IMG/VR virus record: IMGVR_UViG_3300008107_000380
Coordinates: 1-42,788 of that record
Direction: 5' to 3' (one strand)
Length of the DNA stretch: 42,788 nt
Origin: a virus
Below, in pieces: positions 15,502 through 42,788 of the stretch. Every line of letters starts with the position of its first letter. Within the stretch, counting starts at the first letter, position 1. The position numbers and the translations under genes are program-made. Under the pieces are notes generated by a model. That model saw nothing but the letters and a program-made list of their open reading frames with translations. It ran no database searches and was not told the origin of the DNA.

Positions 15502-15515
15502 TAAAAAACATTTGA

Positions 15516-16959: not shown

Positions 16960-17615
16960 TAATACTTATTTTTTTCGTAGAAATCTGCAACCTTTATAAA
17001 GCCAGGCATTACATATCTAATTGGACCTTTTCCAACATGCTTAACTCCATGGTTAAACTCGTCTGTGCCAGGGAACATTACAAGTGTTCCAGCTTTTGGC
17101 TTTATGACAAAATCTTTGTTTGGCCAAAAAATTTCTCCGTCTTCATAATCATCATTTAGATAAAGAACGGCTGCGTACTTAATACTTGGGTCTGTATGCT
17201 GATCTGTATGAGCTTTTAACTCTACGCCTTCTTGCATTCTCTGGAATATTCCAAAAGATAGGTGAAGGGTTGGATCACACTTGTAGATTAAATCTGTTAA
17301 TCTTTTAGTAACTATTCCTGCTACTGGGTAGTCTATAACCAAAAGATTCTTGTCGTCCCAGCCTTTTGTGATTTCGTATTTTCCTTCAGCTACAAGGTTT
17401 TCTACGTCATCTCTACCAAACTTTTCCATACAGAATTTTGCAAGATGTTCTCTATAGTGAACAAACCATCTTTCTTCTGGAGTGCTGTCAATGATCTTCC
17501 AAAAATCTAATAGCTCTTCATTGGTAATAAAATTTTCTACAATCAAAATACCTTCAACTGGCTCAGCTACGTCAAAGCCAGCATTGATTAGATCTTCTTT
17601 TAAGAAAGTTTCCAT
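16959..17615 (-). CDS. 2OG-Fe(II) oxygenase (prolyl hydroxylase type), 218 aa
   Basis: The double-stranded beta-helix signature is complete: H136-T-D138 for iron, distal H189, and R200 for 2-oxoglutarate. LYLNDDYEDGEI precedes the KPKAGTLVMFPG strand, as in the P4H superfamily. Reaction: oxidation of a substrate, usually a prolyl or other side chain, with 2-oxoglutarate and oxygen. GGAGGATAC precedes the ATG and TTGCTATAAT lies upstream. Sixth member of the family in this window, but apart from the other five. Confidence 0.85.
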   Translation of the reverse strand: METFLKEDLINAGFDVAEPVEGILIVENFITNEELLDFWKIIDSTPEERWFVHYREHLAKFCMEKFGRDDVENLVAEGKYEITKGWDDKNLLVIDYPVAGIVTKRLTDLIYKCDPTLHLSFGIFQRMQEGVELKAHTDQHTDPSIKYAAVLYLNDDYEDGEIFWPNKDFVIKPKAGTLVMFPGTDEFNHGVKHVGKGPIRYVMPGFIKVADFYEKNKY

Positions 17616-27583: not shown

Positions 27584-27619
27584 CGATTACATTAACACAA
27601 GAAGGGAGAGTGAACTTCT

Positions 27620-28756
27620 ATGGCAACATTAGATAAAAATTTTATAGTTAAAAATGGTCTTACGGTAGAAGGTTCTACAATAATCTCTCCTGCCGCAACA
27701 ACATCTTTTGCATCATTAAGAATACCTCATGGAACAGCTCCTTCATCTCCTACAAATGGAGATATTTGGTCTACAACCACTGGAATATTTGTTAGAGTCA
27801 ATGGATCAACAGTTGGACCACTTGGACCATCTGGTGGAGCTACAGCAACTCAAACCACTTTCGGCACAGTTGTTGGTATTACAGAAACTGCTAGCACTTA
27901 TCAGTCAAATACTGCAATAGGAAAAAATGCTGGCCTGTATATGCCAACAGGTACTAGTAATACATTTTTTGGATCGCTTGCTGGATTTCAAAATGCAGCA
28001 GGCGTAACTGCTGCTGCTGATGCTAACACAGGAATTGGCAACGCTTCTTTGGCAAGTTTAACAACAGGTGCCAGAAACGTTGGCCTAGGATATGATAGTG
28101 CGTATTCTACAACTACTGGATCCCACAATGTTGCTATTGGTGGAGAAGATGCACTATTTAGCAATATAATAGGAAGTCATAATATTGCAATTGGTACTTT
28201 GGCAGGCTACAACTCAAAAGGTAATTCTAATGTTTTTATAGGAGGTTTTGCTGGAGATTCAATTACAACAGGATCAAACAATATAATTATTGGTCGAGAT
28301 TCTGACGGATCTTCTGCAACAGTTTCTAATGAAATAACTCTTGGAAATACAAGCATAAATAGATTTAGAATGCCTGGATTAGGAGTAGATTGGACTTCTT
28401 CCACGGTTCCAGTAGTTCAAGAAATTATTCCATTAGATGATATTTCAAATGATTTTGATGGGGCAAATACAAGATTTATCCCTAATTATCAAGGTACAAA
28501 AGTAACTATAAATAATCCTTTTCGACTTTTACTAACCATTAATGGTATAATGCAATATATAGATTCACCAGATTATGTATGGATGTCTGGAGTCCCAAGA
28601 AGAGGTTTTTTTGTGGACTATGAAGGACAGATACAGTTTTCTGAACCAGTTCCGCCAGGATCTGAATTTGATGCTAGGCTAATGCCTGGAGATGTAAACA
28701 CAACAAGAACAAGAACGTATCCTTTCAGAGCACTGGATATATTATTAGGAGGATAA
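27620..28756 (+). CDS. Fibre/adhesin with YadA-head-like repeats, 378 aa
   Basis: After MATLDKNFIVKNGLTVEGST come eight repeats of about 14-25 residues built on N-(T/V/I)-(A/F/G)-(I/F/L)-G-x-x-(A/S)-(G/L): NTAIGKNAG, NTFFGSLAG, NTGIGNASL, NVGLGYDSA, NVAIGGEDA, NIAIGTLAG, NVFIGGFAG, NIIIGRDSD. This is the signature of the left-handed beta-roll head of trimeric autotransporter adhesins. The end (PNYQGTKVTINNPFRLLLTI) is a separate beta domain. It probably binds the host surface. Confidence 0.7.
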   Translation: MATLDKNFIVKNGLTVEGSTIISPAATTSFASLRIPHGTAPSSPTNGDIWSTTTGIFVRVNGSTVGPLGPSGGATATQTTFGTVVGITETASTYQSNTAIGKNAGLYMPTGTSNTFFGSLAGFQNAAGVTAAADANTGIGNASLASLTTGARNVGLGYDSAYSTTTGSHNVAIGGEDALFSNIIGSHNIAIGTLAGYNSKGNSNVFIGGFAGDSITTGSNNIIIGRDSDGSSATVSNEITLGNTSINRFRMPGLGVDWTSSTVPVVQEIIPLDDISNDFDGANTRFIPNYQGTKVTINNPFRLLLTINGIMQYIDSPDYVWMSGVPRRGFFVDYEGQIQFSEPVPPGSEFDARLMPGDVNTTRTRTYPFRALDILLGG

Positions 28757-28760
28757 GAAT

Positions 28761-31205
28761 ATGGCAAGAAAAGTATTAACAGAAGGTGGATATTCATTTA
28801 CCGCTTCAACAAAAACGGTGGTAATTAATAAGTCTGTCCCTCGTGAAAATTTAATTTTAATCACAAACGTAACAACTGGACAGGTCATCTATAACTTTTC
28901 TGACCCATCTTTGAAGGCTACCTCCTATACAGTATCTTCAAGCGGTGCTAATTCTACAACTACAATTGTTCTTAACTACAATACACTTGCAATGTCTAAC
29001 TCAGACAAGCTTTCTATTGTAGTTGATGAATATGCCGAGCAGATGGCACCAGCAGAAACCATCCTTGATCCAGTAAACAAGATGCGTGTTTCTCAGCCGC
29101 AATCTCTTATCGATACAGACTTTGAATATGGTCCACAGACAACTAAGTGGGAAAACATTGCTCTTGTAAATAATAGACCATTTGCATATGACAATCAGGT
29201 TCCTCTTACAAACGTTACAGCAATTACAATGAGCGCAAATGCTCGTGTAGTTACTGTTGCTACAGTAACCCCACCAGCAGTTGGAACACCAGTATTTATT
29301 CGTGACTCTATTCTCCCATTTGCAAACGGAAACTTTGTTGTAGAGTCTGTCAGCGCAGGAACTAACTTTACATACACAGCAAGATCCGTAAATTATACAT
29401 CAATTACAGCACTATATGATGCTTCAAAAACAGTAGTAAGCGCTGGTACACTTTATACTGCTGCAAGAATTGGTGGAAACGCAACAATTTCTGTAACAGG
29501 GTCAGACCTAAGAGTTGGAGTAACCACTACTGTTGCACATGGACTTTCTGTAGGAAATGAAATTGCAGTTCGTGGTATTACTGGAACAAACCCTCCAAAT
29601 GGTAATTTCTATGTAGCTTCTGTTACCTCTCCAACAGTGTTTGCATATTTTGCAAACCCAACAGCTGGAACCCCATCATCACTTGGCGGTGCTGCAGAAA
29701 TTTATGTTAGACCACAGTCACAAGTAGTTCACAGACCATTTGACGGTGGAGTTATGTTTGGAACATTTAGCTCTTCAAACAATGTTTCTCAATCACGTCA
29801 AACTCGTAGATATTTCCGATATCAGTCTGGTAAGGGTATTCAGACATCTTCTGGAACAATTTTAAGACCTTATGCTACTGTAGATCAAATTACTTCATCT
29901 GGAACCACAGTAACCGTAACAACTCGTGAGGCACACGGAATGCAGCCAGGAGTTTCTATTACTGTTGCTGGTTGTGTTGAAACCGCATATAACGGAACCT
30001 TTACAGTAGTTTCTTGTCCAAGATTTAATACATTTACATATACAGCATTATCAACACCATCTGCATCACCTGCATCTGGAGATCCAACAGTAAGCGTAAA
30101 CTCATGGTCTGGCGCTAAAAATCGCTTAGGCGTTTTTGATCAGCAAAACGGTTTATTCTGGGAGTATGATGGTCAACAATTATACGCAGTTAGAAGATCT
30201 TCTGTTTATCAGATAGGTGGTCGTATTTCTGTAACAGCTGGAGCAAATACAGTAACTCAAACTGATGCCGCATTTCCAACAGCATTTGCTAAGCAGCTAG
30301 TCGTTGGAGATTGGGTAACAATTAGAGGTCAAGTATATAAAGTTATTAATATTGCATCTGATACATCTATGACAATTTCTCCATCTTATCGTGGAGCATC
30401 TAGCGTTACATTTGGAACATTAACAAAGATGGTAGATACAAGAATTCCACAATCATCATTTAATTTAGATAAGATTGATGGAACTGGTCCGTCAGGATAT
30501 AATATTGATTTAAGTAAAATGCAAATGTTCTATATCGACTATTCATGGTATGGAGCAGGATTTATTCGCTGGGGTGTAAGAGGTCCAGAAGGAGATGTTA
30601 TTTATGTTCACAAGATGGCAAATAACAACGTAAACTCTGAAGCCTATATGCGCTCTGGTAACTTGCCAGCACGTTATGAGACAGTTAATGAGTCTCCGTA
30701 CACACAAACAACTGCAACTCTGAGCTCTGCAGAAGTCACAACACTTTCAGTAAGAAGTACATCAGAATTTCCATCTGCTGGAACATTAATTGTTCGTAAT
30801 GGAACTGTTTATGAGGGTATAAACTATACTGGAAAGACAGCAACAACATTTACTGGATTAACTCGTGGATTAGCTGGTTCTGCAGTAGCTGGAACATCTA
30901 CAACATGGTCATCTGGTTCCGTTTCTGGAACAGTTTCATCTGCAACAGGTATTCAAGTTGGTCAAAGAGTTCATTCATCAACTAACCCAAATCCAGTACC
31001 AGAAGGAACATTTGTAACAGCAGTTTCTGGAACAACAATTACTCTTAATGAGGCTGTAACTGCCGCAAATCCGCAGCTTATATTTGCACCAATTGGAAAT
31101 ACAGCTCAAACATTTACATACATTTGGAACAACCACAGTAACAACAATTTCAGCAGGTGCATCAGTTGCACTAATGTCAATTCGTATAGCTCCATCTGCA
31201 GATAA
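28761..31205 (+). CDS. Large tail or fibre protein, N-terminal part of a frameshifted gene, 814 aa
   Basis: MARKVLTEGGYSFTASTKTV, then many beta domains with the repeating pattern V-x-x-AHGL and TTREAHGMQPGVSITVAGC, and IDYSWYGAGFIRWGVRG in the middle. Up to GNTAQTFTY the sequence is normal; then the frame yields an unrelated stretch (IWNNHSNNNF to SSICR). In the +1 frame the natural continuation FGTTTVTTISAGASVA follows, so one base is extra near 31117-31120. As a whole it would be about 965 residues. Structural; possibly a tail spike or adhesin backbone. Confidence 0.75.
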   Translation: MARKVLTEGGYSFTASTKTVVINKSVPRENLILITNVTTGQVIYNFSDPSLKATSYTVSSSGANSTTTIVLNYNTLAMSNSDKLSIVVDEYAEQMAPAETILDPVNKMRVSQPQSLIDTDFEYGPQTTKWENIALVNNRPFAYDNQVPLTNVTAITMSANARVVTVATVTPPAVGTPVFIRDSILPFANGNFVVESVSAGTNFTYTARSVNYTSITALYDASKTVVSAGTLYTAARIGGNATISVTGSDLRVGVTTTVAHGLSVGNEIAVRGITGTNPPNGNFYVASVTSPTVFAYFANPTAGTPSSLGGAAEIYVRPQSQVVHRPFDGGVMFGTFSSSNNVSQSRQTRRYFRYQSGKGIQTSSGTILRPYATVDQITSSGTTVTVTTREAHGMQPGVSITVAGCVETAYNGTFTVVSCPRFNTFTYTALSTPSASPASGDPTVSVNSWSGAKNRLGVFDQQNGLFWEYDGQQLYAVRRSSVYQIGGRISVTAGANTVTQTDAAFPTAFAKQLVVGDWVTIRGQVYKVINIASDTSMTISPSYRGASSVTFGTLTKMVDTRIPQSSFNLDKIDGTGPSGYNIDLSKMQMFYIDYSWYGAGFIRWGVRGPEGDVIYVHKMANNNVNSEAYMRSGNLPARYETVNESPYTQTTATLSSAEVTTLSVRSTSEFPSAGTLIVRNGTVYEGINYTGKTATTFTGLTRGLAGSAVAGTSTTWSSGSVSGTVSSATGIQVGQRVHSSTNPNPVPEGTFVTAVSGTTITLNEAVTAANPQLIFAPIGNTAQTFTYIWNNHSNNNFSRCISCTNVNSYSSICR

Positions 31206-31659
31206 TGGACAGATTGGTGCATTTGGTGCTCGTGAAATTGTAAATAGAATGCAATTAAAGCTTCAGTCTCTTGGACTTACTTTTACTGGAACAGCACAAC
31301 CTCTGCTAGTAACAGCCGTACTTAATGGAACTCCTTCAAGTACAACCGCTTGGACAAATGCTGTTTCTAATGGAGCAGTACAAAACTCATCACTTGCACA
31401 AATAGCATCATATGCTGGTGGTACAACAACTGTATCTGGTGGTGAGGTTGCAGGTGGATTCTTCGTACAGGGTACAGACCGTCTAGATCTTACAACAGTT
31501 CGTGATCTTGGTAATTCAATTCTTGGTGGCGGAGGATCAAACTCCAATACTGGAATTTATCCAGACGGACCAGATACAATTACAATTGTTGTACGTAATC
31601 TTGGTGCAGCAAACGCAACAGTATTCGGACGTCTAGGGTGGACAGAAGCTCAGGCATAA
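31120..31659 (+). CDS. C-terminal part of the frameshifted large tail protein, about 179 aa
   Basis: Continues the preceding protein in the next frame: TFGTTTVTTISAGASVALMS, GQIGAFGAREIVNRMQLKLQ, LLVTAVLNGTPSSTTAWTNA, GGGGSNSNTGIYPDGPDTIT. It has no ribosome site of its own, and its natural N-terminal junction is TAQTFT/TFGTTT. If two proteins are made this would be the second, but a single gene is more likely. Confidence 0.65.
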   Translation, partial: TFGTTTVTTISAGASVALMSIRIAPSADNGQIGAFGAREIVNRMQLKLQSLGLTFTGTAQPLLVTAVLNGTPSSTTAWTNAVSNGAVQNSSLAQIASYAGGTTTVSGGEVAGGFFVQGTDRLDLTTVRDLGNSILGGGGSNSNTGIYPDGPDTITIVVRNLGAANATVFGRLGWTEAQA

Positions 31660-31671
31660 AAGGAGACATAA

Positions 31672-32562
31672 GTGCCTATTACAAGAGAGCAAACTAAGTA
31701 TATATCAACTAATGATACTGTATTTTTACCATCAGTAGCAGTTGATAGTAATCTTGGCGTTCGTGGAACATCTCTCTTTGACGGTAATGCAATATTTAAT
31801 AATGGAATAAGAATTTCATCAGGATCTTCTATTTTTTCTGGAACAATTGATGAATATTCTATAGTGTCAGGACTACATGCTGGAGTGCAAAATGGAACTC
31901 CAAGATTAATGTTTGCTCCTCCAGGATCGACATCTTCTGCAAACAATTGGCAAATAGATGTAAGTGCTGGAACATTCAGGTGGTTTACTCCAGGAATTGT
32001 GCAAATGAGTCTAACTCCAAGTTCATCTGGTGGAACGGTATCAGTTAATCAAGTAATAGCTTCAGGAACAATCACATTAAGTGGTCCTTCTCCTACAATT
32101 ACTTCTACAAATCCTACAGCGGCATCTGTATTTCCTTCTACAGTTACTGGAATTACTATTGGATCTTCTACAATTAAAACTACAGTATTTCCTGCAGATG
32201 GCACAGTGACAGCAGCCTCAGCAGCTTCAGGATATATGGGAATGCCAAGAGGAAATTCTGGAAATGCTATTACTGGAGCGTATGCAATTACTGCAGCAGA
32301 TGCAGGAAAACATTTATATATAACTACTACTGGACAAACAGTGACTATTCCAGCCAATGGATCAGTAGCGCTTCCAATTGGTACAACTATTGTTTTTGTA
32401 AACGGAAGCGGTGTAACAACAACAATTGCAATAACTACAGATACTTTAAGACAAGCTAATACCTCAAACACTGGAAGCAGAACACTTGCTTCAAATGGCA
32501 TGGCCACACTAGTAAAAATCAATACTACAGAGTGGATTATTGGAGGAAATGGTCTGTCATAA
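31672..32562 (+). CDS. Tail-fibre protein, 296 aa
   Basis: MPITREQTKYISTNDTVFLP then SLFDGNAIFNNGIRISSGS, a central beta shaft and a C-terminal domain TITDAGKH-like (AYAITAADAGKHLYITTTGQ then TVTIPANGSVALPIGTTIVF) common at the ends of phage fibres. GTG start with AAGGAGA seven bases upstream. The TAA overlaps the next possible ATG. Confidence 0.7.
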   Translation: MPITREQTKYISTNDTVFLPSVAVDSNLGVRGTSLFDGNAIFNNGIRISSGSSIFSGTIDEYSIVSGLHAGVQNGTPRLMFAPPGSTSSANNWQIDVSAGTFRWFTPGIVQMSLTPSSSGGTVSVNQVIASGTITLSGPSPTITSTNPTAASVFPSTVTGITIGSSTIKTTVFPADGTVTAASAASGYMGMPRGNSGNAITGAYAITAADAGKHLYITTTGQTVTIPANGSVALPIGTTIVFVNGSGVTTTIAITTDTLRQANTSNTGSRTLASNGMATLVKINTTEWIIGGNGLS

Positions 32563-32618
32563 TGGTATCAGAAAAAGACAATAGTAATAAGAAAAATAAA
32601 AAAGCCACAGGAGTTACT

Positions 32619-33242
32619 ATGGCTACTATTGTTTCTGCACCATTTTTCCCACCATACTTTCCTTTCTTTCCACCCTTCTTTCCTTTCTTTCCTCCTTACT
32701 TTCCTTTCTTCCCGCCGTTCTTTCCATTCTTCCCGTTCTTTCCACCGTTCTTCCCGTTTTTCCCACCTTACTTCCCATTCTTCCCACCGTTCTTTCCTTA
32801 CTTCCCTTACTTCCCGTTCTTCCCATTCTTTCCGTTCTTCCCACCTTACTTCCCATTCTTCCCACCTTACTTCCCGTTCTTCCCACCGTTCTTCCCATTC
32901 TTCCCTTACTTCCCATTCTTCCCATTCTTCCCGTTCTTCCCACCTTACTTCCCATTCTTCCCACCTTACTTCCCATTCTTCCCTTACTTCCCATTCTTCC
33001 CATTCTTCCCGTTCTTTCCACCGTTCTTCCCGTTTTTCCCACCTTACTTCCCATTCTTCCCTTACTTCCCATTCTTCCCATTCTTTCCGTTCTTCCCACC
33101 ATTCTTCCCGTTTTTCCCACCGTTCTTCCCTTACTTCCCGTTCTTCCCGTTTTTCCCACATTTTGCTGGTTGCGGAGTAGGATGTAACGGATGCTTTGCA
33201 GGAAGCACTGGACCAGGGTGCTTATGTGGATGTGCAGTTTAA
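32619..33242 (+). CDS. (F/Y)FP-repeat protein with Cys-rich tail, about 207 aa
   Basis: After MATIVSAP the protein is almost only Phe, Pro and Tyr for about 175 residues, in units (F/Y)FP and PP(F/Y)FPFF, for example FFPPYFPFFPPFFPFF. It then ends with FAGCGVGCNGCFAGSTGPGC and LCGCAV, seven cysteines in 23 residues. AGGAG stands five bases before this ATG; an in-frame ATG at 32562 overlaps the previous stop and would add NSNKKNKKATG. DNA repeats of 9-12 bases (TTCTTCCCN) make the tract. No known family. The repeat would form an extended, strongly hydrophobic rod. Opposite-strand frames are artefacts. Confidence 0.7.
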   Translation: MATIVSAPFFPPYFPFFPPFFPFFPPYFPFFPPFFPFFPFFPPFFPFFPPYFPFFPPFFPYFPYFPFFPFFPFFPPYFPFFPPYFPFFPPFFPFFPYFPFFPFFPFFPPYFPFFPPYFPFFPYFPFFPFFPFFPPFFPFFPPYFPFFPYFPFFPFFPFFPPFFPFFPPFFPYFPFFPFFPHFAGCGVGCNGCFAGSTGPGCLCGCAV

Positions 33243-33254
33243 AATTCTAAACTA

Positions 33255-33283
33255 TTGAAGTTTTAATTTTGATATGTTATCAT
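33255..33283 (+). promoter_or_regulatory. Sigma70-type promoter (TTGAAG-N17-TATCAT)
   Basis: Placed just after the repeat gene, it would start the oxygenase cluster with a leader of about 17 bases including AGAGGA. Confidence 0.5.
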
Positions 33284-33306
33284 TACACTTATAGAAAAGA
33301 GGATTT

Positions 33307-33744
33307 ATGTATAGATATGTAATTGGAACTAAAATAAATGAGAATGAATATGAAATATTTCATAATCTATCTGATTATTCAGAAGTTCCCGCCCCATTTG
33401 TTGAAAGATGTGAAAATGCAATTAATAGTGGTCTGCCAATTATTGGAATGAATACCTCAGCATTTCAAAATGAGGCCTGTACAAATGCTATTTGGGACGG
33501 AACTTCTTTTTCTGGCGGAGTTTCTTTTGAACCAATGAATATCAACTGGGATGTTTCAAGAAGCTACTCACTTTTATGCGACAATAAAGTATTCTTAACA
33601 GTATTTCAAACCGCAGGAAGCTTAGCTGACTCAATGTTTGAGGCAGCATTTTCTGAAGATATAGTATTCTTAAAGTTAGAAGATGATCAATTTGCCTCAA
33701 AAGGAGACATCTGGAACGGTACTAGCTTCAGAGGGCCAGAATAA
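33307..33744 (+). CDS. Hypothetical protein with WDGTSF/WNGTSF repeats, 145 aa
   Basis: NAIWDGTSFSGGVSFEP and GDIWNGTSFRGPE bracket a middle of mixed composition (VFLTVFQTAGSLADSMFEA). The IW-(D/N)-GTSF motif is a fibre-like or tail-accessory element (cf. hinge motifs YYNGTAW), but no domain is recognised. One Cys each in ECT-like and LLCDN. First gene of the oxygenase region. Confidence 0.55.
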   Translation: MYRYVIGTKINENEYEIFHNLSDYSEVPAPFVERCENAINSGLPIIGMNTSAFQNEACTNAIWDGTSFSGGVSFEPMNINWDVSRSYSLLCDNKVFLTVFQTAGSLADSMFEAAFSEDIVFLKLEDDQFASKGDIWNGTSFRGPE

Positions 33745-33746
33745 AA

Positions 33747-33989
33747 ATGTCAAAATGGGATGAATGGAAAAAATCTCTTGGCGATTCAAGGCCATGGCAT
33801 TTATTTGATCCTCACAAGCACATAGAGGATGAAGCTATAATTAAGAATAGACTTGACATATGTTTGTCTTGTGATAATTTAGTAAAAATGACAAAGCAGT
33901 GCAAGTTATGTGGTTGCTACATGCCAGCAAAAACAATGCTTGCAGATGCAGAATGTCCGATTAAAAAGTGGTCAAAAGAACCTCTTTAA
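33747..33989 (+). CDS. Zinc-ribbon protein with CGCxM...CPxxKW, 80 aa
   Basis: ICLSCDNLVKMTKQCKLCGC YMPAKTM and ECPIKKW (seven cysteines) form the two C-x2-C pairs and the CP-x-x-KW end of a zinc-ribbon type (DUF6171-like, from memory) that is frequent next to phage oxygenase genes. HLFDPHKHIE at the start adds His. Function unknown. No ribosome site beyond the AAAAATG context; two bases past the upstream stop. Confidence 0.65.
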   Translation: MSKWDEWKKSLGDSRPWHLFDPHKHIEDEAIIKNRLDICLSCDNLVKMTKQCKLCGCYMPAKTMLADAECPIKKWSKEPL

Positions 33990-34013
33990 AAATATTTAAA
34001 GATATTGTATAAT
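33985..34013 (+). promoter_or_regulatory. Promoter (TTTAAA-N17-TATAAT)
   Basis: Perfect -10 and ideal spacing with a weak -35, overlapping the end of the zinc-ribbon gene and starting the first oxygenase gene of the cluster. Confidence 0.5.
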
Positions 34014-34039
34014 CTACTTATAGAGATAGGAATAAAATT

Positions 34040-34750
34040 ATGGAGTATCAGGACCCACAAGATCACTGGTTTAACAAAGATAGATCAGAAACAGCATCAG
34101 AAAGAATGCCAGTAAAAGAAGCTGGAAAAGGGATAACTGTTTCAAATCCAGGACTAGGACTAAATGTATATCATAATGTATTTTCTGTAGAAGATGCGAA
34201 TAGATATATAAATATATTAGAAACAAATTTGGATGGAAACAATGGCTACCGTTGGTCTGAGGCACAGGTAACAAATTCAACATCTCCAATTAAAAAAGCA
34301 AGAGACTGTGTTGATTTTAGATATAAGCAAGAAAACCTTGGGCCTAGAAATGAAAGAAATGCTCAACTTTTAGATTTACATGAAGAAATTTATCAAAAGT
34401 TGAAGTATTGCATTGATGACTATGCAAGATATTGGGGAATCAATGTAACATATTATGAGGCTTTTAATTTCGTAAAGTATGAAGGTGAAGGAAAGCATTT
34501 TAGAATACACGCAGATGATGGACCAGCTTATAGCTGTAGAGTATCTGCAGTTATATATATAAACGATGATTACGAAGGCGGAGATCTTAATTTCCCAAGA
34601 TTAGATAATTATACGTATAAGCCAAAAGCTGGTGACATAGCAGTGTTTCCATCTAACTATATCTATGAGCATGCATCACTACCAATGACAAGTGGAACAA
34701 AATATTGTGTTGTAGTTATGACAGACTTAAGCGATAGGGCTCATAAGTGA
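34040..34750 (+). CDS. 2OG-Fe(II) oxygenase (P4H type), 236 aa
   Basis: H157-A-D159 and distal H211 for iron and K221 (GTKY) for the co-substrate; YINDDYEGGDLNFP and YKPKAGDIAVFPSN are the beta strands around them. Lys replaces the Arg of standard prolyl hydroxylases. It also has a long N-terminal part with a YRWSEAQVTNS segment. Likely hydroxylates a side chain of a protein or small molecule. First of five such genes in the cluster. Confidence 0.85.
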   Translation: MEYQDPQDHWFNKDRSETASERMPVKEAGKGITVSNPGLGLNVYHNVFSVEDANRYINILETNLDGNNGYRWSEAQVTNSTSPIKKARDCVDFRYKQENLGPRNERNAQLLDLHEEIYQKLKYCIDDYARYWGINVTYYEAFNFVKYEGEGKHFRIHADDGPAYSCRVSAVIYINDDYEGGDLNFPRLDNYTYKPKAGDIAVFPSNYIYEHASLPMTSGTKYCVVVMTDLSDRAHK

Positions 34751-35532
34751 CAGATGAAGAGTCAAATAATTTAATTAAGTTTAGAGCAGCAAACACTTCT
34801 GTAACAGAGTCTAACCCCTCAGTACCTTCTCCAACTCAATCTCAAATTCCAGATTGGTATAAAGAAGCAGATAGATTTGCAAAGCATCCAATTACTGGAG
34901 ACTACTATAAAGCACCACAAGCAGTTTGTCCATTTCCAAAAGAAGGGACAAAAGATGACTATGGAAAAATTCCTACCTGGAAAGCATGCCCAGCTATTTT
35001 AGATGCATTTATTACTGGATATGTTTTAAGAACTCCATGCGATATAACGTTTTTCAAAAATAGTTATGGAAAAATAGACGTAAAGGTTAGTGATGAAAGA
35101 TTTAAATCATTTTGCACTAAGCGCCCACCAATGCCACAATTTAATCATCCATTTGGATATTATGAAGAACACTTTGCTTGGCTTCCAGACTGGGGACTAA
35201 CTGTTCCAGAAGGATATAGTTGTTTATATATGACCCCAATGAATAGATTTGATTTGCCGTTTTTAAATACAACTGGAATCATAGATAATGATGAGGTAAA
35301 GCTTCCTGGCTCATTTCCATTTTTTCTTGTAAAAGATTGGGAGGGAACCATACCAGCAGGAACCCCACATATGCAGATACTTCCATTTAAAAGAGAAAAC
35401 TGGTACCATGAGAAAGAGTTCCTGTCTCAAAGAGAAATACAATTAGAATTTTTTAATAATGCTAAAAAATATAGGGTTCCAGACGGTGGAATCTATAAGG
35501 ACAAAGTTTGGTCCAGAAGAGAATATAGGTAA
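34747..35532 (+). CDS. Conserved phage protein between oxygenases, 261 aa
   Basis: IPDWYKEADRF, then TWKACPAILDAFITGYVLRT PCDI, NHPFGYYEEHFAWLPDWGLT VPEGYSCLYMTPMNRFDLPF and GTIPAGTPHMQILPFKRENW. From memory, this IPxWYK... KxCPP(F/A)xDAxxxGY... GTPxxQxxPFKR pattern is a widespread but unnamed phage and marine-virus protein, often beside oxygenases. It may be a substrate-presenting or scaffold protein. GTG start overlapping the upstream TGA. Confidence 0.65.
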   Translation: MTDEESNNLIKFRAANTSVTESNPSVPSPTQSQIPDWYKEADRFAKHPITGDYYKAPQAVCPFPKEGTKDDYGKIPTWKACPAILDAFITGYVLRTPCDITFFKNSYGKIDVKVSDERFKSFCTKRPPMPQFNHPFGYYEEHFAWLPDWGLTVPEGYSCLYMTPMNRFDLPFLNTTGIIDNDEVKLPGSFPFFLVKDWEGTIPAGTPHMQILPFKRENWYHEKEFLSQREIQLEFFNNAKKYRVPDGGIYKDKVWSRREYR

Positions 35533-35537
35533 ACATT

Positions 35538-36194
35538 ATGAAAACATGGACAGATAAAGAAAATCTTGGCAATGGCATTGTAAGATACTCAAATGTAATT
35601 AAGCCAGAGTTTGACGTTATTAATCGTTTAGAAAAGCTACTGGCTCCTGTTGGAACAACAAACAGGTATGCTTGGCAGCCAGCGTATGTTGGCTACAAAG
35701 AACTGATGCCAGATTATAGAGACTGCACAGACTTTAAATTTAAGAAAACTGATTTACAGTTTGATAAAAGTGAAACATCCTTAGAGCTTCAAAGCTTATG
35801 GCAAGATGTTTATGACGCACAGTCAGCCGCTGTAGATGACTACAGAAGAGATTACAATATAATGGAATTGAAGTATTGGGAAGCATTTAATTTTATTAAG
35901 TATGGCCCAGGACAACACTTCCAGGAACACCACGATCACGGATTCTCATATAACTGTACAGTTTCATTAGTTGCATACCCTAACGATGATTATGAGGGTG
36001 GAGAACTATATTTCAGACTACAGGATTTAAGCATTAAGCCAAAAGCTGGAGACCTGTATATATTCCCTTCAAACTTTATGTACCCACACAGAGCAATGCC
36101 AGTCCATAGTGGAACAAAGTATTCAATTGTAACAATGCTTGATTACAATAAAAAGTTTCATACACCTGAAATGTATAGACCAGATGAGGACTAA
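35538..36194 (+). CDS. 2OG-Fe(II) oxygenase (P4H type), 218 aa
   Basis: H131-H-D133, distal H184 and K194 (SGTKY) form the site; LKYWEAFNFIKYGPGQHFQE is the strand before it and PNDDYEGGELYF the later one. Its closest relative in the window is the 236-residue oxygenase (both use K and YxHxxxPxxSGTKY), so they are likely duplicates. ATG five bases past the upstream stop. Confidence 0.85.
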   Translation: MKTWTDKENLGNGIVRYSNVIKPEFDVINRLEKLLAPVGTTNRYAWQPAYVGYKELMPDYRDCTDFKFKKTDLQFDKSETSLELQSLWQDVYDAQSAAVDDYRRDYNIMELKYWEAFNFIKYGPGQHFQEHHDHGFSYNCTVSLVAYPNDDYEGGELYFRLQDLSIKPKAGDLYIFPSNFMYPHRAMPVHSGTKYSIVTMLDYNKKFHTPEMYRPDED

Positions 36195-36841
36195 TGCTTA
36201 ATATATCTGTTGAAAAGTCTATGGACTCTGTTATATCCATAGCGCCAATGTCAATCAAAAGAGATTGGATGGATGCCACACCAGAAAAGCATGCCTATAG
36301 ATGTTTTCCAGTAACTCAGGCAAATATGGTTGGCTGGTATCTGTATTCAAACAAAGATGTTGAGTTTACTTGGAATGGCATCAATGATACAAGCTCAGAT
36401 AATATTCAGATTACAAAAGGAGTTAGTATGCTAACAATAAATCCAGTAAATTACTTTAATGAGGATTTTGAAACAATGTCTTCTCTAATAAGCACATCTT
36501 GGCTTGACGTTGCCTTACCATTAGCAATCAAAGCCAGAACAGCAAATAAAAATATAGTAATAAAAGCTGGAACTCCGCTGGCAACGATTATTCCAATATC
36601 ATTAACTTCAATGAACGACACAGATATAAATATATTTGACTACTCAGATCCAGACAGAAAAAGAGAACGTGCCCACATGTCATACGGAGAAGCAGCACAA
36701 GAAATAAATAAGCAGGGCAAATGGACTGATTGGTATAGGGATGCAGTTAATGAAAAAGGCGAAAGTCTTGGATCCCATGAGACAAAGGTTATAAGGCTAT
36801 CAGTCTCAGATAATACAAAAAATAGAAATGATATAATGTAA
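36194..36841 (+). CDS. DUF6065-like protein, 215 aa
   Basis: PMSIKRDWMDATPEKHAYRC FPVTQANMVGWYLY and VEFTWNG match the RDWMDATPxxxAYRCLPL ... (A)NxxGW pattern of DUF6065 as I remember it. The end has NEKGESLGSHETKVIRLS. These proteins co-occur with oxygenase genes; the function is not known. Coupled to the oxygenase before it (one shared base) and followed by a leaderless oxygenase gene. Confidence 0.6.
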   Translation: MLNISVEKSMDSVISIAPMSIKRDWMDATPEKHAYRCFPVTQANMVGWYLYSNKDVEFTWNGINDTSSDNIQITKGVSMLTINPVNYFNEDFETMSSLISTSWLDVALPLAIKARTANKNIVIKAGTPLATIIPISLTSMNDTDINIFDYSDPDRKRERAHMSYGEAAQEINKQGKWTDWYRDAVNEKGESLGSHETKVIRLSVSDNTKNRNDIM

Positions 36842-36844
36842 TTA
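36832..36844 (+). promoter_or_regulatory. Leaderless-type promoter (TATAAT-N6-ATG)
   Basis: Perfect TATAAT, six bases, ATG, at the end of the DUF6065-like gene. Confidence 0.6.
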
Positions 36845-37515
36845 TGGACATAATGAATATGAGAAATGATCAAAGAAAATCTATCACCCCCTCTGGATTT
36901 TTTGGAAATAGCGAAAGCATGATAGTAGAGCTAGAAAACTTTATGACCGAAGAGGAAATTAATTTTCTAGAAAATGCTGCTAGAAATATTACAATTTGGG
37001 ATGTTACAGAAAGCCATACGAATGAAAACGGAACGGTTATCTATGACGCAGACTATTGGAAAGATAGAGTAGCAAGCAGGCCATCTTTAGACAAGAATGA
37101 TCCAGCTATCGGACCAGTAATAGAAGGATTGTTTCAAAAACTACAACCAGTAATTGAAAGATTTTATGATGTAAAAGCAGTTCCTACTGGACAAACAATT
37201 GTAAGATGGCTTCCAGGACAATTGCAGAATCCTCATGCAGATAAAGAATTGCATGAAGGACCTGATGCTGGATTGCCTAACGATTTCCATTACTATGTTA
37301 TAGCAAGTCTATTTTATTTAAACGATGATTATGAAGGCGGAGAGTTATACTTCCCTCTTCAAGGAGTTCAGTTCAAGCCAAAGCGTGGAGCAGCTTATTT
37401 CTTCCCAGGAGATAAGAATTTTATTCACGGAGTTACGCAGATTCAAAGTGGGATTAGATATACATGTCCATTTTTCTGGACAATATTAGAACATACTGGA
37501 GACAAGAAGCCATGA
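36844..37515 (+). CDS. 2OG-Fe(II) oxygenase (P4H type), 223 aa
   Basis: H131-A-D133, distal H195 and R205 give a full iron and 2-oxoglutarate site; FYLNDDYEGGELYFPLQG and FKPKRGAAYFFPGD are the strands. Arg as in standard prolyl hydroxylases. An N-terminal FFGNSESMIVELENFM TEEE leads the fold. Leaderless start. The next start overlaps its TGA (ATGA). Confidence 0.85.
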   Translation: MDIMNMRNDQRKSITPSGFFGNSESMIVELENFMTEEEINFLENAARNITIWDVTESHTNENGTVIYDADYWKDRVASRPSLDKNDPAIGPVIEGLFQKLQPVIERFYDVKAVPTGQTIVRWLPGQLQNPHADKELHEGPDAGLPNDFHYYVIASLFYLNDDYEGGELYFPLQGVQFKPKRGAAYFFPGDKNFIHGVTQIQSGIRYTCPFFWTILEHTGDKKP

Positions 37516-38258
37516 ATCTAATAAAGCATACAGATAATGTTTTTGTTTATGAAGATTTTTTATCGCCAGAAGAATCTGCTGCTGTAATAAAAATAATTGA
37601 CAAGCAGGCAGAAAATGGAAAAATTTCATGGATGCCAATTTCTTTTTACGAATCTTATTCTTCTGTTACCCCACAAGATGGAGATTCAGAGCTAGAAGAA
37701 TTTGGCCTACCTTCTAATTTTTTTTCTAATTTAAAAAATAAGTTTATAGATGCAATAGCAGAGGTTGCGAACAAAGACAGAACAAACATCTTTGAAATAG
37801 GCTTTCATACTCAAAAATGGGAGCCTGGCGCATACGCAAGACTGCACTCAGATAACACAGATGAAAAGGGAAATACTGGACCTTTTGCTAGAAGCAGATA
37901 CGCCGCATTCTTATATCTCAATGATGATTTTGAAGGTGGGCTACTAAACTTCCCATCACAAAATTTAACTATTCAGCCAAAAGTAGGAATGCTTGCAGCA
38001 TTTGATGGAGGTTTTGAAAATATGCATGAGGTCACTATAATTACAAAGGGTACAAGATATACAATTGGATCTTTCTGGGATGATAGAGCAGAATCAGATT
38101 ATCCTCAAGAAACCAGAGATGCTTGGGCAGAAGAGATGAAAAGGATTAGAGAGGCTCAAGAAGTAGAAAGAGCAGAGTGGCAGGAATTGCTAAAAGAAGG
38201 ATACAAGTTAGATTTAGAAGGTCAAAAGTATAAATTTAAAGGAGAAGAAAATGAATAG
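37512..38258 (+). CDS. 2OG-Fe(II) oxygenase (P4H type), 248 aa
   Basis: H112-S-D114 (RLHSDNTDEKG), distal H172 and R182 (GTRYT) form the site, with LYLNDDFEGGLLNFPSQ between. After the core comes a helical tail (RDAWAEEMKRIREAQEVERA and EWQELLKEGYKLDLEG) absent from its neighbours, perhaps for dimer or partner contact. The first Met here is chosen because it overlaps the previous TGA, not the longer upstream frame. Confidence 0.85.
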   Translation: MNLIKHTDNVFVYEDFLSPEESAAVIKIIDKQAENGKISWMPISFYESYSSVTPQDGDSELEEFGLPSNFFSNLKNKFIDAIAEVANKDRTNIFEIGFHTQKWEPGAYARLHSDNTDEKGNTGPFARSRYAAFLYLNDDFEGGLLNFPSQNLTIQPKVGMLAAFDGGFENMHEVTIITKGTRYTIGSFWDDRAESDYPQETRDAWAEEMKRIREAQEVERAEWQELLKEGYKLDLEGQKYKFKGEENE

Positions 38259-38940
38259 AGAAATCTTAGAAGAAAAGATATATTACTATACTGATGTATT
38301 TGAAGATCCAAAGAAGCTGGTAGAAATTATTGAGTCTACAGAATTTAAGGACTTTGGAAACTCTATATCAAAATGGTCTAGCTGGGATTCATGCAGTGGG
38401 CAAATGTATAACTACGGAACAGAAAAAATTGTTTACGCAAATGAAGAAGAAAAGTCTAAGCCAGCAGAATCTAATGAAGTAAGCTATATATTCCATGCCA
38501 TTAATAATGCATTCTATGAGGCTTGCAAAGACTATGCTTTATCTCAAGGAGATACAGAAGAGCCAAACTTCTACCCAGTCTTTCCAATTAAAAAGTATAA
38601 AGAGGGAACGTTTATGGGTGCCCACTACGACCAGCAAGAAGGCGACAAGAGACTTAAGTACTCAATGGTAATGTATTTAAATGACGACTATGAAGGCGGA
38701 GAAATATCATTTACCATTAAGTCACCAGATGCTCCAATTATCGAAGGAAAGCCTTCTGAAGATTTTGAGGTGGCTAGCCAAATGAATAAGGAATTGCTAA
38801 CAGTTGCAGTTAAGCCAAAAGCAGGCAGCATTATTATATTCCCATCATCTCCACCCTACCATCACACAGCACATCTAGTTAAAAGTGGATTTAAGTATAT
38901 GGTCCCAAGCCACTGGATGTTTCAAAATATAGATGCATAA
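38251..38940 (+). CDS. 2OG-Fe(II) oxygenase (P4H type), 229 aa
   Basis: H125-Y-D127, distal H205 and K215 (SGFKY) form the site; MYLNDDYEGGEISFTIKSPD carries an insertion before VKPKAGSIIIFPSS. A nearby H204 gives YHH. AAAGGAG precedes the ATG inside the upstream gene. It has Lys like two relatives. Last of the cluster. Confidence 0.85.
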   Translation: MNREILEEKIYYYTDVFEDPKKLVEIIESTEFKDFGNSISKWSSWDSCSGQMYNYGTEKIVYANEEEKSKPAESNEVSYIFHAINNAFYEACKDYALSQGDTEEPNFYPVFPIKKYKEGTFMGAHYDQQEGDKRLKYSMVMYLNDDYEGGEISFTIKSPDAPIIEGKPSEDFEVASQMNKELLTVAVKPKAGSIIIFPSSPPYHHTAHLVKSGFKYMVPSHWMFQNIDA

Positions 38941-38972
38941 GGTTTGCAAAAAGCTCTATAATATAATTTTGC

Positions 38973-38987
38973 TATAATTGTACTATG
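38973..38987 (+). promoter_or_regulatory. Leaderless-type promoter (TATAAT-N6-ATG)
   Basis: The third of three near-tandem TATAAT boxes (38957, 38962, 38973) stands six bases before an ATG. Confidence 0.6.
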
Positions 38988-39143
38988 AGCCCATACCAAA
39001 GAAAGCCAGGAAAACATTTTTGTAATCAAATGTATTCCCCGTATTTTCAAACAGAAAACTATAAAGAAGCTCATTTGGGTGCAGAAAGAACAGTAGAAAA
39101 ATATTATAAAAAAATTATAATGTTTATTAGAAGAAAGAAATAA
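38985..39143 (+). CDS. Small basic protein, 52 aa
   Basis: MSPYQRKPGKHFCNQMYSPY then FQTENYKEAHLGAERTVEKY and IRRKK. Rich in Tyr, Lys and Arg with one Cys. No recognised family. Leaderless start. One base separates its stop from the next ATG. Confidence 0.55.
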   Translation: MSPYQRKPGKHFCNQMYSPYFQTENYKEAHLGAERTVEKYYKKIIMFIRRKK

Positions 39144-39144
39144 A

Positions 39145-39375
39145 ATGACAATTGACTACACATCACTACTTACAGTTGAGCAAAAGAAGACTATTCTAGA
39201 ACAAAGAATTGCACAGTTTGCTGCAGAGGCTTACCAGCATTCTCTTAATAAGAAGACTTGCGAAGGCCTACAGGATGTAGAAGGCGCAGAATCAGCAGCA
39301 AAGTCGTTGGCTATTCTAGAGGCTGCAATCAACGTACACTCAGAAGAGCTAAACTCATTGCCGTCAGAAGGTTAA
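39145..39375 (+). CDS. Hypothetical helical protein, 76 aa
   Basis: MTIDYTSLLTVEQKKTILEQ RIAQFAAEAYQ, then EGLQDVEGAESAAKSLAILE. Predicted helical; similar short proteins (LTVEQ-x-x-x-L ... AAEAYQHxLN) sit near structural genes in other phages, from memory. AAGAAAGAA before the ATG. No function known. Confidence 0.6.
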   Translation: MTIDYTSLLTVEQKKTILEQRIAQFAAEAYQHSLNKKTCEGLQDVEGAESAAKSLAILEAAINVHSEELNSLPSEG

Positions 39376-39383
39376 TATTCTGA

Positions 39384-39398
39384 TATAATCTATTTATG
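39384..39398 (+). promoter_or_regulatory. Leaderless-type promoter (TATAAT-N6-ATG)
   Basis: Perfect box, six bases, then ATG of the LamG-fold gene. Confidence 0.6.
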
Positions 39399-41129
39399 TC
39401 TTACAGAATAAAGGTTTTAAAAGATAATCCTATAGGTTTTTGGCCTTTAGATGAGTCTTCTGGAACCACAGCAACAGACGCTTCTGGTTGCGGAAACAAT
39501 GGAACATATTCAAGTGTCTCGTTACAAAACATAGTCCCTCTAGTTATGGGTGGAGTGTATTCTGTAAATATAAATAATTCAGGCTCGATATCTCTTCCAG
39601 TAACAAAAAATTTTTATGGAACAACAGTTACTGGTGGCGGCTTTGCCAATTTAAAAAGCTCAGATAATGATTTTTCTTTAGAGGTTTGGTTTTGTCCAAA
39701 AATAAGTACATCTAACAGAACAACAATTTTTGCTGATGAAACTAACAGCATTGGCATATATTACGAAAACAGTAATATTCTTTTTAAGTTAAATAATGAA
39801 GAACTATATTATAATTTAAATAGTAAAAATAAGGTATTTCATGTAGTTGCAACTTACTCTACAAGATCAATGCAAATATTTATTGACGGCATGCTATCAG
39901 CATCAAAATCGATATCAGATTTTAAGTTTTCAAATACTACAACAGGCCCCTTTAAAATTGGTCCAACCCTTAATGCATCTGACTCATTTTTAGTAGAATG
40001 CCCAGCTATTTATAGATATGCGCTTTCAGATAAAAAGGTGGCAGAGCATTATTCTAATGGCATCTATCATGTGGATGCATTCCAGATAGTTAATCAAGAC
40101 GGAGGATTTTTCTTTTCTACACATGAAGAGAATTTAAACCCATCGTATGTTCATGAATTTAGCCCAGAACAAATTGAGCTTGGAATGACAGAAGACACAT
40201 ACTATGAAAATGATAAAAAATATATTGGATTCTATAAATCTTCTGGCGAAAAGTCATTAATACTTTTTGACACAATAATGTTACCATCTACATTAAATGT
40301 TGTTTCTTCAAAAATAGAGTGGCTGGCGGATAAAAATATAGTCGTACAGATGGGTACAGATGGATCTACATATCCCTATACATTAACAAATGGGTCATCG
40401 TTGCCTCTATACAACAAGTCAGAAGCGCTTGGAAATAGAATTATATACTTAAAGGTAACTTTTACAACTTTAGACGCTTCAAAATATTTGCCTAAATTTT
40501 TAAATCTAAGAGTAAAGTTTTATGACACAAAAGATCTATATAGCGATAATAGCAAGTACTTTATAACATCTACTAGCGAATATGATATAGCCTCTTTTAA
40601 TTATCCAACGCTTATTAGAATGGATAGGGACGGCATCCAAACGTCTTCATCTGGAGGATTTAAAATAAACTGTGATGCAAGTATAAATACTTTAGAGTTC
40701 TTCTATAACCCATCAGCCCTAACAGCAAGTACGCTTATTAATAATACCTCCGCTAATTTTTCATGGAACGGCTCAGGAGTAGTGTCCAAAACAAATATAG
40801 CTGCTATATATGTAAATGGAGTTGATAGGTCCTCTGCAACATCAGCTTCATCAATCTTTAATATTGGGCAAATTCATCATGTTGTAATTAGATTTACGAC
40901 GGCTATAACTGGAGATATTAAGTTCAATTATAATACTTCTGGTGGCCCATCGAATGGATTTAATAACATTGCTATTTATACGAAAGCATTAACTGGTACT
41001 GAGGCATTGAGACATTATTCTGAGTATACCTCAAGGCCAGTTTCATCCTCATCGGATTCTACTATGACGATGACAGATAATGGCATAAACTATGCAAATA
41101 GTGAATGGATAGTTATATCAACCATATAA
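39396..41129 (+). CDS. LamG/concanavalin-A-like virion protein, 577 aa
   Basis: RIKVLKDNPIGFWPLDESSG TTATD, SGCGNNGTYS and NDFSLEVWFCPKISTSNRTT with FHVVATYSTRSMQIFIDGML are the strands of a LamG/ConA-like lectin domain (about 5-225). A second, weaker copy lies near the C-terminus (INTLEFFYNPSALTASTLIN to FNNIAIYTKALTGTEALRHY). Between is a beta-rich region. The domain binds sugars in many viral minor tail proteins. Role: probable adhesin or tail-associated protein. Confidence 0.75.
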   Translation: MSYRIKVLKDNPIGFWPLDESSGTTATDASGCGNNGTYSSVSLQNIVPLVMGGVYSVNINNSGSISLPVTKNFYGTTVTGGGFANLKSSDNDFSLEVWFCPKISTSNRTTIFADETNSIGIYYENSNILFKLNNEELYYNLNSKNKVFHVVATYSTRSMQIFIDGMLSASKSISDFKFSNTTTGPFKIGPTLNASDSFLVECPAIYRYALSDKKVAEHYSNGIYHVDAFQIVNQDGGFFFSTHEENLNPSYVHEFSPEQIELGMTEDTYYENDKKYIGFYKSSGEKSLILFDTIMLPSTLNVVSSKIEWLADKNIVVQMGTDGSTYPYTLTNGSSLPLYNKSEALGNRIIYLKVTFTTLDASKYLPKFLNLRVKFYDTKDLYSDNSKYFITSTSEYDIASFNYPTLIRMDRDGIQTSSSGGFKINCDASINTLEFFYNPSALTASTLINNTSANFSWNGSGVVSKTNIAAIYVNGVDRSSATSASSIFNIGQIHHVVIRFTTAITGDIKFNYNTSGGPSNGFNNIAIYTKALTGTEALRHYSEYTSRPVSSSSDSTMTMTDNGINYANSEWIVISTI

Positions 41130-41190: not shown

Positions 41191-41532
41191 ATGGACATCA
41201 ATAAGATAAACTCGCAAGTTGTAGAAGACGTCACCAGACTTGGAATATATGTCTGGGAAATGCCAGACGGAAGATGGATTGGCGACGACGATGGCAATTT
41301 CCTATCAGTTACTTCTACAAAAGGAAACAGGTCTAAGATAGACGCCCTGGCTAGAGAAGTTAGATCATATGGAATCCATGACGGAAAGCCTAAGTTTTTA
41401 GCAGGACGCAGAAAAATAGATGATGAAGAATTTGAGCATCAGACTAAAAGACTTGAGTGGGGCCTAATTCCAGATCCATTGGATATCGGAAACCATAAAG
41501 ATGAAATGAAAAAATTAAGAGGTGGGAAATAA
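41191..41532 (+). CDS. Conserved hypothetical protein before portal, 113 aa
   Basis: LGIYVWEMPDGRWIGDDDGN FLS then IDALAREVRSYGIHDGKPKF LAGRRKIDDEEFEHQTKRLE WGLIPDPLD. Similar short proteins precede the portal in other phages (YVWxxPDGxxxGDDxGNFLxxxSxxGD), from memory, unnamed. TAAAAT lies eight bases before the ATG, another possible leaderless start. Confidence 0.65.
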   Translation: MDINKINSQVVEDVTRLGIYVWEMPDGRWIGDDDGNFLSVTSTKGNRSKIDALAREVRSYGIHDGKPKFLAGRRKIDDEEFEHQTKRLEWGLIPDPLDIGNHKDEMKKLRGGK

Positions 41533-41533
41533 T

Positions 41534-42788
41534 ATGATACACGAAGAAGAGTCAAACACAGAAAGCATTCAGCTATCAAATATAGATGATTGGGTCAGAT
41601 TTAACACCCCTCAAGATGTTGTGAGCAATGACCCATTTAAAATTGAAGGAGATGCTTTATCAAAAGTATCTGGACTAAGCTCTACATTTCGTCGTAAGAT
41701 GAATAGAGATCTACAAAAAAGATTTACTGGTATTGATGGAACTGCTACACAGCAAAATCTATTGCAACAGGCGGTTACTGGATATGCAATGTTTGATCTT
41801 GTGGAACCTCCATATAATCTAGAATACCTTTCTACAATTTATGAAATATCTCCATACAATTACTCTGCAATCAACGCAAAGGTTTCTAATATTGTTGGTT
41901 TAGGTTTTGACTTTATTGAAACAAGAAAAACAGTAGATGCTATTGATGAGATAACAAATGAAGCCCAGCTACAAAGAGCTAGAAGAAAGCTTGACAAGTT
42001 GAGACAAGATCTGCATCAATGGCTTGAAGATTGCAATGAAGAAGAAACATTTAAAGAAACTCTTATTAAGTTCTATACAGATGTAGAAGCAACTGGAAAT
42101 GGATTTTTAGAAATTGGTAGAACCACTTCTGGCAAGATTGGATATATTGGTCACATCCCTTCAAAGACTATGAGAGTTCGTCGCCTTCGTGATGGATTCA
42201 TTCAGTTGCTATATGGCAAGGCAGTGTTCTTCCGTAACTTTGGAGATCAAGAAACTCCTAACCCAATTGCTGGTGGACTTGATAGACCAAATGAAATTAT
42301 TCATTTTAAAAAGTATACACCTAAAAATAATTACTATGGAATCCCAGATATTATTGCTGCTCAAAATGCCATGACTGGAAATGAGTTCGCTGGAAAATAT
42401 AACCTTGACTACTTTGAAAATAAGGCGGTTCCAAGATATATTATTACAGTAAAGGGAGCAAAACTATCTGCAGAATCAGAGCGAAAGCTATTAGAATTTT
42501 TCCAGGTTGGACTAAAAGGCAAGAACCATAGATCTCTTTATATTCCACTTCCTGCAGATTCGCCAGATTCTAAGGTTGAATTTAAGATGGAGCCAATTGA
42601 GGCAGGAACTCAAGAATCTTCATTTAATGTTTACAGACAATCAAATAGAGATGAAATTTTGATGGCTCACCGTGTTCCAATTTCTAAAATCGGAAGTCCT
42701 CAAGGAATATCTCTTGCTAATGCTCGTGATGCAGATAAGACATTTAAAGAGCAGGTTTGTAAGCCAATTCAAGATATATTAGAAAAGA
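41534..42788 (+). CDS. Phage portal protein, partial (first 418 aa)
   Basis: Runs off the right edge. NLEYLSTIYEISPYNYSAIN, NEIIHFKKYTPKNNYYGIPD and RYIITVKGAKLSAESERKLL, then RDEILMAHRVPISKIGSP are the usual order of PBSX/HK97-type portal proteins (stem, wing and crown). The portal is the dodecameric ring at the capsid vertex through which DNA enters. One base past the previous stop. Later head genes should lie to the right. Confidence 0.85.
   Translation, partial: MIHEEESNTESIQLSNIDDWVRFNTPQDVVSNDPFKIEGDALSKVSGLSSTFRRKMNRDLQKRFTGIDGTATQQNLLQQAVTGYAMFDLVEPPYNLEYLSTIYEISPYNYSAINAKVSNIVGLGFDFIETRKTVDAIDEITNEAQLQRARRKLDKLRQDLHQWLEDCNEEETFKETLIKFYTDVEATGNGFLEIGRTTSGKIGYIGHIPSKTMRVRRLRDGFIQLLYGKAVFFRNFGDQETPNPIAGGLDRPNEIIHFKKYTPKNNYYGIPDIIAAQNAMTGNEFAGKYNLDYFENKAVPRYIITVKGAKLSAESERKLLEFFQVGLKGKNHRSLYIPLPADSPDSKVEFKMEPIEAGTQESSFNVYRQSNRDEILMAHRVPISKIGSPQGISLANARDADKTFKEQVCKPIQDILEK

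Follow-up and report, generated by a model that had tools for sequence, protein, structure and literature searches.

A Phe-Phe-Pro repeat gene and an array of prolyl hydroxylase-family oxygenases: a candidate protein-modification cassette of uncultured phages

The 42,788-base virus record IMGVR_UViG_3300008107_000380 of IMG/VR, analyzed here over its full length (the window), carries at 32619–38940 a gene for a protein of tandem Phe-Phe-Pro units, termed the FF-Pro repeat protein, together with an array of five Fe(II)/2-oxoglutarate oxygenases of the prolyl hydroxylase superfamily (P1–P5) and two interleaved proteins, D1 and D2. This gene set recurs in many uncultured lake viruses of bacteria, where repeat and array keep a fixed order and are exchanged jointly. 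In our view the array is likely to hydroxylate the FF-Pro protein before virion assembly, with proline as the probable target.

The repeat protein and the oxygenase array

The region of the cassette has the following open reading frames (ORFs):

32619..33242, plus strand: FF-Pro repeat protein, (F/Y)FP(P) units with a Cys-rich C-terminal tail, 207 aa; homologues L032 and L201
33307..33744, plus strand: small protein whose relatives (cluster of 60 loci) often come after the repeat gene
33747..33989, plus strand: DUF6171 Cys-containing small protein (PF19668, E 9.3e-7; phrog_13558)
34040..34750, plus strand: oxygenase P1, core subfamily 0 (PF13640, 1.2e-11)
34747..35532, plus strand: D1, dUTPase-like fold by predicted structure, no Pfam family (phrog_7084)
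35538..36194, plus strand: oxygenase P2, core subfamily 0 (PF13640, 8.3e-15)
36194..36841, plus strand: D2, DUF6065 (PF19541, 8.1e-24)
36844..37515, plus strand: oxygenase P3, core subfamily 1 (PF13640, 2.9e-7)
37464..38258, plus strand: oxygenase P4, core subfamily 2 (PF13640, 4e-9); the true start may be ATG 37512
38251..38940, plus strand: oxygenase P5, subfamily 5, which accompanies type A repeats (PF13640, 4.2e-11)

An earlier sequence-only reading had described an (F/Y)FP protein with nearly one Pro in three residues, directly followed by five prolyl hydroxylase-family genes. The composition is borne out: the 207 residues from ATG 32619, which has AGGAG 6 bases upstream, include 92 Phe, 70 Pro (34%) and 14 Tyr. 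The five enzyme genes are likewise all intact members of PF13640, but they do not follow the repeat directly, as two small ORFs intervene and D1 and D2 lie among them. Another possible start is the in-frame ATG 32562, where the repeat ORF would overlap the end of the gene before it. The Cys-rich tail reads GCGVGCNGCFAGSTGPGCLCGCAV. The coding sequence of the repeat draws on four codons for Pro and two for Phe, indicating that selection acts at the protein level.

Two forms of the repeat were distinguished, type A with FFP/FFPP units and type B with FFxPPx units. Of 1304 type B units, 1297 retain FF and 1299 retain PP, with free variation at the positions between. The repeat failed the test for collagen, being (F/Y)FP(P) or FFxPPx and not a Gly-X-Y tandem repeat. 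Repeat number differs among close relatives (ORFs of 178 aa in L032 and 303 aa in L201). Most type A (86 of 87) and type B (75 of 86) proteins have a region of more than 80 aa ahead of the repeat; the window protein is without it. Matches to fn3 above the cut-off of a Pfam scan were present in four of six complete-length repeat proteins and in one partial protein. The codon pattern of FFPP[FY]FPFFP gave seven matches in 84,980 bacterial and archaeal genomes, and chance is excluded as the source of the repeat because just one of them, L285, is a comparable repeat ORF. L285 is a 5.3 kb contig of a Chitinophagaceae metagenome-assembled genome that also holds three genes of the prolyl 4-hydroxylase (P4H) family and two D genes; it is probably a phage contig and gives a weak hint at the host group.

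Several further features of the repeat proteins were observed. Among complete proteins, 13 of 87 of type A and 45 of 86 of type B have a C-terminal part longer than 100 aa. An intein/Hint-like domain with Cys first and ...HN-x at its end, below the cut-off of Pfam Intein_splicing, closes many FF-Pro proteins (for instance L527:835-2151, L529:769-2097, L072:5250-6659(-) and L143:2157-3509); this domain could cleave or anchor the repeat. In about 15 loci the repeat gene is directly followed by Sulfotransfer_2 and Asp/Asn beta-hydroxylase genes, as at L072:3985-5236(-) and L143:3510-4764; these are candidates for further protein-modification enzymes. In L026 and L098 a type A block lies inside a long Pro-Thr repeat protein, with no adjoining oxygenase and six elsewhere in the record.

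All five array oxygenases score above the PF13640 cut-off of 27 bits, and the HxD...H iron triad with the K/R for 2-oxoglutarate is present in all six PF13640 copies of the window. Across the arrays, the catalytic site HxD..H..K/R is retained in 1200 of 1276 oxygenases, and all 70 of the 70 sampled match PF13640. The AlphaFold model of P1 (predicted local distance difference test, pLDDT, 89) has prolyl hydroxylases as its nearest folds in the PDB: the Trichoplax PHD with a HIF peptide (Z 20.4), Pseudomonas P4H with EF-Tu (4iw3, Z 19.5), algal P4H with (Ser-Pro)5 (3gze, Z 19.5) and chlorovirus P4H (5c5t, Z 17.1). The top matches include the peptide complexes 6f0w and 3gze. P1–P5 are candidate peptidyl prolyl 4-hydroxylases.

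The model of D1 (pLDDT 92) matches dUTPase with Z 10.0 over 130 residues at a root-mean-square deviation of 4.1. Motif 3-like GIIDND and motif 4-like AGTPYxQ are conserved in D1, and motifs 1, 2 and 5 are unrecognizable by eye. D1 and D2 are distant homologues (hhalign E 2.8e-5), only D2 falling in DUF6065 (PF19541, 84.8 bits against a cut-off of 26.6). Relatives of D1 (about 25%) occur in haloarchaeal HF1/HF2-like viruses (INPHARED; L630). In Halorubrum tailed phage 7 such a relative is next to thymidylate synthase, with DNA polymerase close by, and in view of these neighbors the dUTPase-fold family may have originated in nucleotide metabolism.

Co-occurrence and exchange of repeat and array

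The FF-Pro codon pattern was found in at least 119 stretches of IMG/VR; the type A counts of downstream neighbors are among the matches listed, and refer to the 83 listed stretches with at least 3 kb downstream. An oxygenase neighbor was defined as a PF13640-like gene on the strand of the repeat and no more than 5 kb downstream of it. Type B loci (n = 64) came from an independent search for the FFxPPx motif, and another Pro-rich repeat, the Pro-Thr repeat (n = 56 loci), served as control. The co-occurrence of FFP proteins and P4H clusters, which the sequence-only reading had proposed as a check, proved positive: an oxygenase neighbor was present in 78 of 83 type A and 60 of 64 type B loci, and D1 or D2 also lay downstream in 76 of the 83. 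In the Pro-Thr control an oxygenase neighbor was present in 6 of 56 loci, and only one of the 56 had two or more oxygenases. The arrangement is directional, as only one of 47 type A loci, and none of 52 of type B, had an oxygenase within 5 kb upstream. When the whole records of the nine exceptions (five type A, four type B) were inspected, seven proved to have 5–13 PF13640 genes at other places, and two were fragments.

The converse was assessed with loci found through D1 that had at least 2.5 kb upstream of the array (n = 48). An FF-Pro gene lay upstream in all 48, and a collagen-like gene in 12. Loci that appeared to have an array and no repeat turned out to carry the PPxFF variant, which is the FFxPPx repeat of type B, or a short hybrid repeat (L621), or to be truncated. 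Collagen-like repeats were also considered as the true partner of the array and were ruled out, showing no association in the D1-found or the portal-anchored set.

Because the neighborhood counts include related phages, and a few stretches share one contig, anchoring on the portal gene was used as a fairer test. Of the 67 distinct loci retained, each with roughly 9 kb or more of upstream sequence, 25 had both repeat and array, 37 had neither and none had the repeat alone; four were truncated inside the array, and in one (L621) the array came with a short hybrid repeat that missed the threshold. At least eight changes of array state fall on the portal tree, and across six independent pairs the repeat follows the array in an average of 5.9 (p 0.031), which collagen-like repeats fail to do. 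PF13640 genes, with no FF-Pro repeat near the portal, were seen in the array-negative relatives L542, L543, L544, L545, L559, L566, L570 and L208 (one each) and in L547 (three).

Close relatives illustrate the joint exchange. In L529 (type A) and L527 (type B) the flanking ORFs are 98 and 99% identical, whereas the repeat, all oxygenases and the D genes are only 29–55% identical. L266 and L265 are close by portal, one with the cassette and the other without. The L529/L527 swap is taken as support and not as proof, because block exchange alone could move neighbors together.

The arrays together contain at least nine oxygenase subfamilies. Subfamilies 0, 1 and 2, referred to as core, occur with both repeat types. 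Subfamily 3 is confined to type B (33 of 64 loci versus 0 of 83), and subfamilies 4, 5 and 6 are confined to type A (33, 32 and 24 of 83, respectively, versus 0 of 64). In the portal set, including the window, subfamily 5 is found in 11 of the 14 type A arrays and in none of the 12 of type B, and the swapped pair conforms to this pattern.

Genomic setting and proposed function

Outside the cassette, the following features of the window were noted:

16959..17615, minus strand: sixth PF13640 oxygenase (1.3e-11)
25529..32562, plus strand: upstream genes, 3 of 4 tested matching virion structural PHROGs (phrog_6002, phrog_5838)
39396..41129, plus strand: Laminin_G_3/concanavalin A-like protein downstream of the array (PF13385, 7.2e-14)
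41522..42787, plus strand: portal protein running off the window (phrog_12, 1.4e-46)

With structural-type genes upstream and the portal downstream, the gene neighborhood makes it likely that the FF-Pro protein is located in the virion. The sequence-only reading had further drawn on plant extensins and collagens, which are hydroxylated on Pro, glycosylated and cross-linked through Tyr, to propose a hydroxylated, glycosylated spike. Its three GT61-like genes (one below the Pfam cut-off), GT4 gene and sulfotransferase gene are present, but 12–20 kb away; the GT61-like genes, the sulfotransferase and the sixth oxygenase cluster at 12415–17615. Glycosylation did not hold up as a general feature: GT61 was found in 3 of 45 records, two of them from the window's own lineage, being common to the window and its closest relatives L622 and L624 and rare in other cassette-bearing phages. 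GT61 is thereby ruled out as a conserved part of the cassette; other GT families were not searched. Extensin-like cross-linking through Tyr is not general either, since Tyr is a minority residue and type B units have FF nearly throughout.

The link between enzymes and substrate fared better, gaining strong comparative support from the fixed-order co-occurrence, joint gain and loss, joint swapping and the predicted fold of P1; hydroxylation itself is what we infer from them. We hypothesize that the region is a phage protein-modification cassette, in which a fibre-like virion protein of tandem Phe-Phe-Pro units would be encoded beside its own Fe(II)/2-oxoglutarate oxygenases. Before assembly, these would act in the infected cell to hydroxylate the repeat, proline being the most likely target. 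The core subfamilies are common to the arrays of both repeat types, and the accessory subfamilies would be matched to FFP/FFPP or to FFxPPx. D1 and D2, the constant partners of the dUTPase-fold family, would perhaps act as a scaffold or substrate holder. Hydroxylation could render an aromatic, Pro-rich and very hydrophobic segment soluble, stiff or adhesive.

Several observations weigh against this interpretation. The evidence for these phages comes from sequences and predicted structures, and PF13640 includes enzymes other than prolyl hydroxylases. Exchange of cassettes between conserved flanks would move neighbors together even without an enzyme–substrate link. Among the 37 array-negative relatives of the portal set, all without the repeat, 28 lack PF13640, eight have one copy and one has three. 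Three type A loci of that set are without subfamily 5, and when the matching of subfamily to repeat is controlled for phylogeny, only three informative independent pairs are left, all concordant and not significant. The five to nine paralogues exceed the need of one residue type, and the strongest doubt about the target residue comes from this number of oxygenases and from the equal conservation of Phe. 

That doubt leads to an alternative we regard as unlikely, namely that the oxygenases do act on the FF-Pro protein, mainly on aromatic or on several types of residue and not specifically on Pro. Phe-Phe is as invariant as Pro-Pro, at least nine subfamilies go beyond the need of one chemistry, and 15 loci add the sulfotransferase and Asp/Asn beta-hydroxylase genes after the repeat gene. 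The P1 model, however, is closest to prolyl hydroxylases, and the sampled oxygenases all belong to PF13640, a family in which we know of no 2-oxoglutarate oxygenase that hydroxylates peptide Phe. The array might instead target proteins other than the repeat, for example tail fibres, collagen-like proteins or host translation factors, with the repeat gene a mere neighbor; Pseudomonas P4H does modify EF-Tu, single PF13640 genes occur in phages without the repeat, and the array lies within a structural region. We judge this improbable, as the FF-Pro association is near-complete both ways, is absent for collagen-like repeats and is found likewise for the second motif, FFxPPx.

A cassette for modifying DNA bases or nucleotides, with TET/JBP-like oxygenases, dUTPase-fold proteins and glycosyltransferases, would accommodate the fold of D1 and its halovirus relative next to thymidylate synthase, and Tet_JBP is indeed weakly matched by 5 of 70 sampled oxygenases (best E 2.5e-4). 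These matches are weak and fewer than those to PF13640; in the window, the test for TET/JBP (PF12851) failed, 36844–37515 scoring 19.1 bits against a cut-off of 34.9. The cassette is moreover tied to a repeat protein, its subfamilies change with the repeat type and GT61 is rare, so that we find this explanation very improbable. Least credible to us, and already disfavored, is chance or hitchhiking of neighbors that lie between conserved genes: it fits the exchange of cassettes as blocks, but leaves unexplained both the absence of repeat-only and array-only blocks and the constant order across two repeat types and different tail contexts.

Relation to known systems and implications

Hydroxylation of the FF-Pro protein by the array has its nearest viral parallel in the vP4H of chlorovirus PBCV-1 (5c5t), a virus-encoded prolyl hydroxylase of the same fold, for which Pro-rich viral proteins have been proposed as substrates, as here. 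To our knowledge, however, vP4H is a single enzyme of an algal virus, with no array, FF-Pro repeat or dUTPase-fold partners. A caution for the proposed hydroxylation comes from PBCV-1, which has this characterized prolyl 4-hydroxylase: amino-acid analysis of its virions is reported to have given no hydroxyproline (ref. 162 in the chlorovirus review PMC7019647). The algal Cr-P4H (3gze) and its extensin-type substrates resemble the cassette in enzyme fold and in a fibrous, tandem Pro-rich substrate. In the plant and algal system, by contrast, the substrates are Ser/Pro-rich, secreted and glycosylated, whereas here the units are Phe-Phe-Pro, the setting would be the bacterial cytoplasm and GT61 is not conserved. 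PHD2, Trichoplax PHD and the EF-Tu-modifying Pseudomonas P4H give the best structural matches (Z 19.5–20.4), as enzyme–substrate complexes; unlike what is proposed for the array, they modify a single site of a non-repetitive protein, and they share 13–17% identity. Cyanophage 2-oxoglutarate-Fe(II) oxygenases are phage-encoded members of the same superfamily, differing in that they show about 23–40% identity to P1, mostly over partial matches, with at most two matching places per record among the matches listed.

As the repeat is unsuited to tblastn in INPHARED owing to low-complexity masking, D1 and P1 were used as queries instead, and no close relative of either was found among its phages. 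A megablast of 32500–42788 against INPHARED gave no match, and no cultured phage with the cassette was found. The literature search found no description of the repeat motif or of prolyl hydroxylation of phage virions, with most subscription papers and preprints outside its coverage. The array, its class of substrate and the matching of subfamily to repeat thus appear to be new, whereas the kind of enzyme and virus-encoded prolyl hydroxylases were already known. In viruses of the Baltic Sea water column, prolyl 4-hydroxylase ranks with the most abundant auxiliary metabolic genes, its viral use having been called cryptic (PMC9301287).

In its widest form, which we advance tentatively and rate slightly less likely than not, the proposal is that a large group of uncultured, mostly aquatic phages builds a virion fibre of an undescribed Phe-Phe-Pro material, matured by dedicated multi-enzyme hydroxylation. 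Accessory enzymes would be adapted to the respective repeat type, and in some phages an intein-like domain would process the repeat or anchor it. The cassette points to such a tandem-repeat material, not described so far, and to a set of enzymes already in place, which may modify it in the bacterial cytoplasm. It also offers viral P4H enzymes a specific, testable substrate in the same genome. The finding suggests that many viral P4H genes serve virion maturation and not host metabolism; if the proposal in its widest form is true, phage oxygenases now counted as auxiliary metabolic genes would largely be virion-maturation enzymes.

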